From the NCBI GenBank assembly GCA_017938885.1, contig JAGBAS010000110.1, forward strand, positions 1 to 37,781: DNA of 37,781 nt. Direction: 5' to 3'. The stretch's first letter is position 1, and each line of letters starts with the position of its first letter. This document shows positions 10,772 to 13,408 of the stretch, piece after piece. Both the position numbers and the translations under genes were made by a program. Source of the stretch: Clostridia bacterium (GTDB taxonomy: Bacteria > Bacillota > Clostridia > Oscillospirales > CAG-272). The notes under the pieces are model-generated. The model was given only the letters and a program-made list of their open reading frames with translations. It did not search any database and had not been told where the DNA came from.

Positions 10772-10836
10772 ATTCCATCCATATCCCCGCACCAAGCCGA
10801 CGATTCGGATACGGTGCGGGGATTTTGGATGGAATT
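10772..10836 (+). terminator. Strong two-part terminator hairpin
   Basis: TCCCCGCACC (10784-10793) pairs with GGTGCGGGGA (10813-10822), followed by TTTT. An outer arm ATTCCATCCA (10772-10781) pairs with TGGATGGAAT (10827-10836). It closes the transcription unit of the unknown lipoprotein. Confidence 0.85.
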
Positions 10837-10847
10837 TACAAAACGTA

Positions 10848-10876
10848 TTGACAAACGTGCTTTACCATGGTAAAAT
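10848..10876 (+). promoter_or_regulatory. Promoter of the BadF-SIS-SIS operon
   Basis: TTGACA (10848-10853), 17 bases, TAAAAT (10871-10876) with a TG just upstream of the -10. The palindrome CCATGG lies in the spacer. No clear operator or cre-like site is visible. Confidence 0.8.
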
Positions 10877-10911
10877 ATACGCAAGATTCGGAACCAAAGG
10901 AGCATGGCCCT

Positions 10912-11880
10912 ATGCAAAAATCCTACTATCTCGCCGCCGACGGAGGCGGAAGCAAGCTCCAAGCCGTTCTGTATGACGAGAATTTTCAAGTCTATCGTAC
11001 AGGGCGCGTAGCGGGTGTCAACACCCTTTTTAAGCCGACCGAGGTGGTTCGTAATAATATTGAGGGCATGATGAAAGAGCTCTTAGCCGCAGGAGAAGAC
11101 GGAAACGTCCCATCCATCGCCGCCGCTGATCTTTGCATGGTCGGCGCGGCAGATATGATGCGCGATATACTGGAACGCTTGGGAAACGGGACGAGGATCA
11201 CCTTCCATGCGGAGCCCGTCGTTGGTCTGGCGGCTTGCCTGCGCACCGAGGGAGCCGTAGCTCTTTCCGGTACAGGCTCTGATGCCTTTTTCGTCAAGAA
11301 CGGAAAGTGCCTTCGCTCGGTCGGAGGCTGGGGGCCGCTGTTGGGCGATGAAGGAAGCGGCTACGATATCGGTCTCAATACCATCAAGGCGGCGATCTAT
11401 TCCTTCGATGGTCGTCGGGCACCTTCCATACTCTACGACTTGGTCATGGAACGCTGGAGTCTGGATCATCTGTGGGGCATTGTTACCCATCTGGCCGGAA
11501 ATCCCGACGCGCGCCACGAGGTCGCCTCCGCTGCAACCCTATGCGCCAAAGCAGCACATATGGGCGACCCGACGGCTCTTCGGATTTACGAGCACGCCGC
11601 CTTGGAAATGTCCCTCCAGGCCCGAACAGTCATTGAGTCCTATCGGGAGCTTTGGGACGGTACCATCGTAGTCATGGGAGGAGCATGGAAAGGTCATCCC
11701 CATATGTATGACGTTTTTCAAAGCGAGCTGAGATTGATCTATCCCGAGGCAACCGTATTTTGGCCCCTGTATGAGCCCGTCGTTGGTTGCGTAGTCCTTC
11801 GGTGTCTGCGGGAGGGAATGTCGCCCGAGGCACTTCGCAAGCCGCTTTCGGAGGGGTTTGCTCCGTTTATCTATCAGTAA
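10912..11880 (+). CDS. BadF/BcrA-type sugar kinase (N-acetylglucosamine kinase-like)
   Basis: 322 residues, starting at 10912 behind AAAGGAG; the in-frame ATG at 10867 lies inside the promoter and is excluded. The ASKHA-fold phosphate loops are AADGGGSKLQAVLYD (8-22) and SGTGSDAFFV (about 119-128). The adenosine/glycan segment GGWGPLLGDEGSGYDIG is the signature of BadF/BadG/BcrA proteins that act as N-acetylglucosamine, N-acetylmuramate or glucosamine kinases. A cytoplasmic ATP-dependent sugar kinase is the best reading; the activator of dehydratase subfamily is unlikely because no Fe-S cysteine pair is seen at the dimer interface. Its operon mates are two SIS-domain proteins, 14 and 12 bases apart. 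That points to an amino sugar whose phosphate is then isomerised or cleaved. The exact sugar is not known. Confidence 0.85.
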   Translation: MQKSYYLAADGGGSKLQAVLYDENFQVYRTGRVAGVNTLFKPTEVVRNNIEGMMKELLAAGEDGNVPSIAAADLCMVGAADMMRDILERLGNGTRITFHAEPVVGLAACLRTEGAVALSGTGSDAFFVKNGKCLRSVGGWGPLLGDEGSGYDIGLNTIKAAIYSFDGRRAPSILYDLVMERWSLDHLWGIVTHLAGNPDARHEVASAATLCAKAAHMGDPTALRIYEHAALEMSLQARTVIESYRELWDGTIVVMGGAWKGHPHMYDVFQSELRLIYPEATVFWPLYEPVVGCVVLRCLREGMSPEALRKPLSEGFAPFIYQ

Positions 11881-11894
11881 GAAAGGAACCGATC

Positions 11895-12638
11895 ATGTCT
11901 GCCATTCAAGCGTATTACAGTCGTATTTCCGAGATCCTGAACGAGGTCTTTTTACAGGAAGCCGAGAGCATGGAAAGGGCTGCCCAAGTGCTGGCTTGCG
12001 CCAATCGAGAAGGGCATTCCATCTTTGGATTCGGATGTAACCATGCAGGACTCATAACCTTGGAGCTTTTCTACCGCACAGGCGGGATGGTCACGGTCAA
12101 CCCCATCCGTGCGCCCGGCATGATGCTGGAGTTGTCTCCCCCCACCATGACCAGCGAAATGGAGCGCATCCCCGGGTACGGAAGGATCATTCTGAACAAT
12201 GAGCCCTGTAAAGCGGGAGATATACTCATCATCCATTCGGTTTCGGGCAGAAACGCCGTCACCATCGACATGGCCGAGTGTGCAAGAGAGAAGGAGATGA
12301 CCGTCATTGTGGTGACCAATATGAACACAGCCACCTCGGTCACGTCCCGCCATCCCTCCGGTAAAATGCTTCACGACTTCGCTTCCATTCTGATCGATAA
12401 TCACGGAGACCTCGGTGACGCGACCATCCAGCTTCCCGGCTTTGAGCAAAAGCTGGCTTCCTCCTCCACCGTGGTCGGTGCCGCCATTCTCAACGCCGTC
12501 ACCGCAAGAGCCTCCGAGATCCTCTGGGAGCAGGGAATTACCCCGCCTGTTTTTATGAGCGGAAACATTGACGGCGGTGATGCCTATAATCAACGGGTCA
12601 TTGCCGAACACAAGGACAATATTTTTTACACGAGATAA
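11895..12638 (+). CDS. SIS-domain protein (UPF0309-like), first of two
   Basis: 247 residues; GAAAGGA before the ATG sets the start at 11895. A single SIS (sugar isomerase) domain: the phosphosugar loop is SVSGRN (115-120), and the N-terminal FGFGCNHAGLITLELFYRTGG (44-64, shown by its ends) resembles the UPF0309 group. The C terminus SGNIDGGDAYNQRVIAEH aligns with that of the next gene. SIS proteins bind phosphosugars and act as ketose/aldose isomerases, lyases (MurQ) or regulators. There is no helix-turn-helix domain, so it is an enzyme or subunit and not an RpiR regulator. It lies between the sugar kinase and a second SIS gene in one transcription unit. Substrate unknown. Confidence 0.85.
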   Translation: MSAIQAYYSRISEILNEVFLQEAESMERAAQVLACANREGHSIFGFGCNHAGLITLELFYRTGGMVTVNPIRAPGMMLELSPPTMTSEMERIPGYGRIILNNEPCKAGDILIIHSVSGRNAVTIDMAECAREKEMTVIVVTNMNTATSVTSRHPSGKMLHDFASILIDNHGDLGDATIQLPGFEQKLASSSTVVGAAILNAVTARASEILWEQGITPPVFMSGNIDGGDAYNQRVIAEHKDNIFYTR

Positions 12639-12650
12639 AGGAGGTTCCAT

Positions 12651-13298
12651 ATGCTGATCGACCGATACCATCAAGCCGTAGACAATCTTCTGAAAACCGT
12701 CCGCGAAACACAAAGAGAAGCCATCATCCGGGCAGGCGAGCTGGTCGCCGAGGCCGTCGAGCACGGCCATAAGATCTACCTGGGCCACATCGTCCATGGC
12801 ATCGAGATGGATCTCATCTATCGCGGCGGCGGCCCCATCTTCTACAAAGAGTATAAGCCCGGTGAGACAGAGCTGAAGGCGGGAGATGTGCTGTTCGTCT
12901 CTTCGGTGTCAGGCCGCACCAAGTCGGTGGTGGACCTGGCCTGGGACTGTATGCAAAAGGGCATCAAGGTCATCGCCCTGACCTCCATGACCTATGCTAC
13001 CCAAGTTGACCCCGTCCACGAATCGGGCAAAAAGCTCTATGAGTTCGTAGACCTCGTTCTGGATAACTGTGCGCCCGCCGCCGAGGCTATGCTGGAGGTA
13101 GAAGGCATCGAAGCCCACTACGCCGCCGCCTCCGGTATCGCATCGGACTACATCATGTGGAGTCTGACCTCGGTCTGCGTAGAGAAGATGCTCCGTGATG
13201 GCTTTACTCCGGGTATCCTCAAGTCCGCAAATTTCCCCGGCGGCAACGACTACAACAAACAGATCATCGAGCCTCATTACGATGAATTTGGGTGGTAA
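12651..13298 (+). CDS. SIS-domain protein (UPF0309-like), second of two
   Basis: 215 residues, with AAAGGAGG seven bases before the ATG. It is a divergent paralogue of the preceding gene: same order of a helical N terminus, LGHIVHGIEMDLIYRGGG (44-61), a phosphosugar loop SSVSGRT (84-90), and a C terminus FPGGNDYNKQIIEPH that matches the GGDAYNQRVIAEH end of its neighbour. It is about 30 residues shorter. Its codon use is richer in C-ending codons than the first SIS gene. SIS proteins are often dimers with residues from both chains in the active site, so a heteromer of the two products is possible. It ends the operon at a hairpin 9 bases downstream. Confidence 0.85.
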   Translation: MLIDRYHQAVDNLLKTVRETQREAIIRAGELVAEAVEHGHKIYLGHIVHGIEMDLIYRGGGPIFYKEYKPGETELKAGDVLFVSSVSGRTKSVVDLAWDCMQKGIKVIALTSMTYATQVDPVHESGKKLYEFVDLVLDNCAPAAEAMLEVEGIEAHYAAASGIASDYIMWSLTSVCVEKMLRDGFTPGILKSANFPGGNDYNKQIIEPHYDEFGW

Positions 13299-13306
13299 AT
13301 AACAAA

Positions 13307-13332
13307 AACGCCTCACAGGGATGTGGGGCGTT
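13307..13332 (+). terminator. Terminator of the BadF-SIS-SIS operon
   Basis: AACGCCTCACA (13307-13317) pairs with TGTGGGGCGTT (13322-13332) with one G-U pair and a four-base loop. The following T tract is weak (TTAATCATTG). Confidence 0.7.
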
Positions 13333-13379: not shown

Positions 13380-13408
13380 TTGACATTCCCTGTGCAATAT
13401 GCTATAAT
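13380..13408 (+). promoter_or_regulatory. Perfect consensus sigma-70-type promoter
   Basis: TTGACA (13380-13385), exactly 17 bases, TATAAT (13403-13408). It is the only full-consensus promoter in the window and drives the small lipoprotein gene at 13475. Confidence 0.9.

Follow-up and report, generated by a model that had tools for sequence, protein, structure and literature searches.

NagS (SCO4393) is the GlcNAc-6P dehydratase of Streptomyces, a homodimer encoded by a single gene that adjoins dmdR1, with structures deposited as PDB 9eol, 9f7o and 9f7v (PMC12680351). Its H53A, R64A, E94A and D179A variants are inactive and those with S91A or N228A are weakly active; the substrate held by one subunit is acted on by Arg64 and Asn228 of the other (PMC12680351). 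True NagS is described as confined to Streptomycetaceae, and distant homologs, with 25-36% identity, do not have NagS activity (PMC12680351). On the kinase side, MurK of Clostridium acetobutylicum serves for comparison (Reith 2011, cited in PMC5790795). We found no characterised BadF-SIS-SIS pathway in the open-licence literature that we searched, and in this we agree with an earlier note on the DNA, whose author knew of no characterised pathway with a kinase and two SIS proteins.

We analysed a stretch of 37,781 nucleotides from a Clostridia bacterium (hereafter the window), in which a kinase gene (K) is followed by two genes for SIS proteins, SIS1 and SIS2 (Table 1). The earlier note had described three genes 12-14 bases apart, enclosed by one promoter and one terminator. 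The gaps are 14 bases between K and SIS1 and 12 bases between SIS1 and SIS2, as described, and we confirm that K, SIS1 and SIS2 form a three-gene operon. The promoter also stands, as a predicted near-consensus element (11/12 positions); an alternative opening of the K reading frame, ATG 10867, would overlap its -10 box. The terminator stands only in part. The hairpin 3' of SIS2 is strong, but there is no U-tract after it on the + strand, the T-run being on the - strand, and it is not among the terminators listed by the terminator scan. Without a U-tract on the + strand, the hairpin does not qualify as a canonical intrinsic terminator of the operon. No transporter gene is present in the operon. 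Two further elements were seen in the vicinity: a very strong hairpin (10772-10842; -42.9 kcal/mol, z -8.9) that separates the operon promoter from the preceding gene, and a perfect 12/12 sigma-70 promoter (13380-13408; TTGACA-17-TATAAT, with TG), downstream of which lies a gene whose Thr-, Glu- and Pro-rich, lipoprotein-like product has no Pfam match.

Table 1. Positions in the window of the three genes, their predicted expression signals and the residues discussed in the text.
Feature	Positions	Strand	Description
Promoter, sigma-70 type	10848-10876	+	TTGACA-17-TAAAAT, extended -10 TG; consensus scan, 11/12
K	10912-11880	+	BadF/NagK-type kinase, 322 aa; AAAGGAG ahead of start
K codon 101, GAG (Glu)	11212-11214	+	Catalytic-Asp position of NagK/MurK/hexokinase
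SIS1	11895-12638	+	NagS-like SIS_2 protein, 247 aa
SIS1 Glu90	12162-12164	+	NagS catalytic Glu94 by alignment
SIS1 Asn224	12564-12566	+	NagS Asn228, mobile loop, by alignment; NagS structure PMC12680351
SIS2	12651-13298	+	Short diverged SIS_2 paralog, 215 aa
SIS2 deletion site (short form)	12840-12870	+	About 30 residues, from alignments; short clade 98/96
SIS2 Glu145	13083-13085	+	Position of essential NagS Asp179; Glu in SIS2 of 80 loci
Strong hairpin 3' of SIS2	13307-13332	+	Fold -18.3 kcal/mol, z -6.8

The products belong to the families that had been named for them, a BadF-type kinase and two SIS proteins. K matches Pfam BcrAD_BadFG (E 3.6e-17; 63.2 bits vs a cut-off of 31.5), and SIS1 and SIS2 match Pfam SIS_2 with E values of 6.8e-36 and 1.4e-16. 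Both SIS proteins also exceed the 135-bit cut-off of PRK02947 (269.9 bits for SIS1 and 167.4 bits for SIS2), and the closest solved relatives of both are NagS (9eol) and 3cvj. Their common ancestry, likewise proposed earlier, is borne out by 30% identity (E 5e-34), and the C-terminal motif that they have in common is real; it spans the mobile loop of NagS (226-232) that carries Asn228.

Scanning GTDB genome contigs, we found 205 SIS2 relatives and kept 80 loci, mostly from metagenome-assembled genomes (MAGs) of gut and rumen Clostridia. These loci and the window hold 60 complete trios, window included, with the order SIS1-K-SIS2 in 32, K-SIS1-SIS2 in 27 and K-SIS2-SIS1 in one. Most of the other loci are truncated where the contig ends, and a few have SIS2 alone or K-SIS2; of the 51 loci flanked on each side by 3.5 kb or more, 45 have the complete trio. 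Around the Clostridia trios, no recurrent neighbour was found beyond the trio itself, the largest neighbour cluster having 7 members. Among 118 genomes of the window's family, SIS2 occurs in 21 and SIS1 in 22, and 21/21 genomes with SIS2 also have SIS1 (Fisher p 2e-22, relatedness ignored); these calls use bit-score cut-offs (SIS2 >250, SIS1 >318) that were set once a gap between the scores had become apparent. The two genes lie on different contigs in genomes G013, G025, G085 and G103, and 12 of the 15 genomes that have no SIS1 near SIS2 have SIS1 elsewhere (>310 bits). Because many of the genomes are incomplete MAGs, absences are weak evidence. Conservation of the three genes together in relatives, on which the earlier note had made its proposal depend, is thus seen both in the 60 complete trios and in the 21/21 shared genomes, which rules out chance adjacency of K, SIS1 and SIS2. 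That the three genes act as one unit is well supported. One locus (L121, 2-1429) has two consecutive SIS2 genes.

SIS1 is 40% identical to NagS SCO4393, and in the alignment all of the essential NagS residues, H53, R64, E94 and D179, are present as H50, R61, E90 and D175. SIS1 also keeps NagS S91, S119, S121 and N228 as S87, S115, S117 and N224, and has Ala for Ser54. A true NagS is recognised by an identity of at least about 58%, by its origin in Streptomycetaceae and by a dmdR1 neighbour; here the identity is 40%, the genomes are Clostridia MAGs and the neighbours are other genes. SIS2 retains NagS H53, R64, S119, S121 and N228 as H49, R58, S85, S87 and N194. Ser91 and Glu94 are missing from the window SIS2, along with about 30 deleted residues, and within the essential set H53/R64/E94/D179 the protein thus lacks Glu94 and carries Glu in place of Asp179. 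Glu94 is absent from SIS2 in 80/80 loci and position 179 is Glu in 80/80; the full-length orthologs, which do not have the deletion, are likewise without Glu94. Loss of the phosphosugar site in one SIS protein had been named as a test of the original proposal, and here the outcome is divided, since the phosphate serines of SIS2 are kept and its catalytic Glu is lost.

SIS2 keeps Arg64 and Asn228, which in NagS act on the neighbouring subunit's substrate, and loses Glu94, which acts in cis, a combination that a SIS1:SIS2 complex would require. We tentatively favour the reading that the operon is an amino-sugar-6-phosphate module in which SIS1 would be catalytic and SIS2 would act jointly with SIS1, perhaps as a hetero-oligomer, and we place it somewhat short of an even chance. 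Retained phosphate serines and a lost catalytic Glu could also mark SIS2 as a phosphosugar sensor that binds the intermediate of the pathway and regulates SIS1, K or a further protein, in the manner of the NanR, MurR and GKRP SIS domains. In an AF2 model (pLDDT 93.4), the best fold match of SIS2 is NagS 9eol (Z 25.8, rmsd 1.8, 213 residues), followed by 3cvj (Z 25.7) and then by matches at Z of about 17; the SIS domains of MurR and NanR appear in this search, below NagS. NagS and 3cvj are thus by far the closest folds, and SIS2 has no DNA-binding domain, which makes a sensor role very unlikely in our view.

The phylogenies bear on how tightly SIS2 is bound to its partners. Gene order divides the SIS1 tree and the K tree, each with support of 100/100. 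The SIS2 tree is at odds with gene order (3 changes; a single change in 0/200 bootstraps) and separates short from full-length proteins, with the short clade (98/96) compatible with a single origin of the short form. The same SIS2 lineage thus occurs with different K+SIS1 pairs. Distances correlate at 0.90 for K and SIS1 and at r 0.65 for SIS1 and SIS2, and of the three genes SIS2 is conserved best (mean identity 0.70 vs 0.58 for SIS1). Strict SIS1-SIS2 co-evolution as proof of a complex is unsupported, given the r of 0.65 and a SIS2 tree that is independent of SIS1. An AF2 model of a SIS1-SIS2 fusion, built by reading TAA as Gly, gave a pTM of 0.53 and no confident packing; its 5-residue linker and shallow alignment of 30 rows make it a poor test of the complex.

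An independent SIS2 tree would suit a second reading, in which SIS1 and SIS2 are separate homodimeric enzymes for successive steps and SIS2, with its changed active site, catalyses a different reaction, e.g. hydration of the product of SIS1 or its aldose-ketose isomerisation. In the trios, SIS2 retains a His53 and phosphate serines of its own; it is also better conserved than SIS1 and can be unlinked from it within a genome, all of which suits an enzyme in its own right. However, a residue essential in NagS is missing from it with no obvious replacement, and the short form lacks about 30 residues at that place. We take the possibility of successive enzymes seriously and place it only a little behind joint action.

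Related loci in the wider Bacillota point to the kind of pathway involved. In these loci K and SIS1 are accompanied by a second diverged class, SIS2b, whose residue 228 is His rather than Asn in most members and whose Glu94 is usually Asp or replaced in some other way. ABC sugar transport genes, DUF6259 and GntR are found at the K/SIS1/SIS2b loci, and one genome, L187, additionally has NagA, NagB and a ROK kinase there. Such a context links the wider Bacillota group with the breakdown of amino-sugar phosphates, and by analogy the window trio may act on the same substrate. The amino-sugar 6-phosphate role that the earlier note had considered for a kinase and two SIS proteins is supported as probable. 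We also considered the trio as a replacement for MurQ, NagA and NagB and rejected it, because all three are present elsewhere in the window genome, MurQ on another contig. Tandem NagS-like SIS-SIS pairs were also seen in L204, L206 and L203; two are in loci whose genes, to judge from the sequence starts alone, include mannose-type PTS-like ones, and the pair in L203 adjoins a NagB-like gene. A protein of about 700-800 aa recurs beside K/SIS2b in the wider Bacillota (L187, 7404-9506; L200, 8000-10102; also L190, L198 and L201) and matches DUF6259 in the two cases tested, L187 and L200. It is possibly a glycoside hydrolase; among open-licence papers, we found none on DUF6259.

The kinase carries its own signature. 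The best solved relative of K in a phmmer search is the MurNAc/GlcNAc kinase 8zo3 (8.8e-28), and K scores 83.9 bits against the NagK equivalog NF046058, below the threshold of 370 bits. The ATP-binding motifs are kept (DGGxK, GTG, GGWG and the GDEGSG region). In alignments, E101 of K falls on D103 of 8zo3 and on D95 of the S. tokodaii hexokinase 2e2n, and a gapless count to the SGTGS motif equates it with D107 of human NAGK, where the HMMER alignment is gapped. We take the Asp at this position to be the catalytic base of the kinase family. The catalytic Asp of the BadF-type amino-sugar kinases NagK and MurK is thus absent from K, which has Glu101 instead, and this makes the kinase activity of K uncertain. 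Neither this exchange nor the missing catalytic Glu region of SIS2 had been anticipated in the earlier note. The Glu is invariant in the kinases of 60/60 complete trios and is also found in further trio kinases; mean identity among trio kinases is only 34%, yet Glu101 is kept throughout the complete trios. Asp occupies the position in 13 non-trio BadF kinases of related genomes, hand-picked from the family search rather than drawn at random; the one exception in this comparison, L216, has Glu. Three of these 13, as well as the kinase of L040, adjoin a single, different NagS-like SIS gene. Kinases of SIS2b loci in the wider Bacillota have Asp, except L193. The BadF kinase of L216 (410-1396) has the trio-type Glu, but the 1.8-kb stretch retrieved contains neither SIS1 nor SIS2, and the genome to which this kinase belongs (G023) does not appear among the genomes in which SIS1 or SIS2 was matched.

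Such a consistent exchange, in all complete trio kinases despite their low identity and, among the non-trio BadF kinases of related genomes, only in L216, could mean that K is no longer a sugar kinase and has become an ATP-dependent sensor or uses another acceptor, a reading that is compatible with any of those for the SIS proteins. The ATP-binding motifs are retained, however, and Glu could still serve as the base. We consider the loss of sugar kinase activity distinctly unlikely.

If the operon is a joint-action module, K would phosphorylate an N-acetyl-amino sugar or a related sugar at O6, as its family suggests. SIS1 would be the catalytic SIS protein, opening the ring and removing the C2 proton via Glu90, His50 and Asp175, and would then either isomerise the sugar or eliminate the C3 group as NagS and MurQ do; the residues are in place and the activity is what they would predict. 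SIS2 would work with SIS1 on the same phosphosugar, most likely paired with it in a hetero-oligomer. This module is favoured by the 60 trios in three gene orders, by SIS1 in 21/21 family genomes with SIS2, by the division of residues between SIS1 (essential set complete) and SIS2 (phosphate serines, R64 and N228 kept, E94 not), by the pairing of the same SIS2 with different K+SIS1 pairs, and by the K/SIS1/SIS2b loci with ABC sugar transport genes, DUF6259, GntR and, in L187, NagA/NagB. Against it stand the higher conservation of SIS2 and its loose tracking of SIS1 (r 0.65), a poor fit to an obligate partner, the fused AF2 model without confident packing, the conserved phosphate site of SIS2 itself and its independent tree, the Glu for catalytic Asp in K, MurQ, NagA and NagB elsewhere in the window genome, an operon without a transporter, and the lack of NagS activity in distant homologs with 25-36% identity (PMC12680351). 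A bolder form of joint action would be a new phosphosugar system, in which a kinase with a Glu base and a SIS1:SIS2 hetero-oligomer, whose Glu-less subunit completes or tunes the partner site, carry out an undescribed amino-sugar-phosphate conversion; this we regard as unlikely.

The operon is widespread and has sharp residue signatures, and a characterised counterpart was not found in the literature searched. Among gut and rumen Clostridia it forms a conserved set of three genes, the products of which have so far been recognised only as a kinase and sugar isomerases, and it can be marked in any genome by the Asp-to-Glu change in the kinase, the absence of Glu94 from SIS2 and the Asp179-to-Glu change in SIS2. 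Should the unit prove active, it would be a further route for amino-sugar phosphates in host-associated bacteria and would pair an intact with a Glu-less NagS-type enzyme, a case that is new to us.

Compared with NagS, SIS1 is alike in its 40% identity and complete set of essential residues, and SIS2 in its fold (Z 25.8) and mobile-loop motif. The trio differs in joining two paralogs to a kinase, whereas NagS is one gene and a homodimer, and in its residues, with Ala for Ser54 in SIS1 and, in SIS2, no Ser91 or Glu94 and Glu for Asp179. BH3325 (PDB 3cvj), a putative phosphoheptose isomerase, falls under PRK02947 like SIS1 and SIS2 and keeps Glu94 and Asp179; it is a single protein, however, and SIS2 is without the Glu that it keeps. 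The MurNAc/GlcNAc kinase 8zo3 resembles K in sequence (8.8e-28) and in the ATP motifs, but the trio kinase has Glu for the catalytic Asp. MurQ, the MurNAc-6P etherase, shares the SIS fold, the phosphate serines and the NagS-type elimination chemistry, whereas the window genome has its own MurQ, and SIS1 and SIS2 group on the NagS side.
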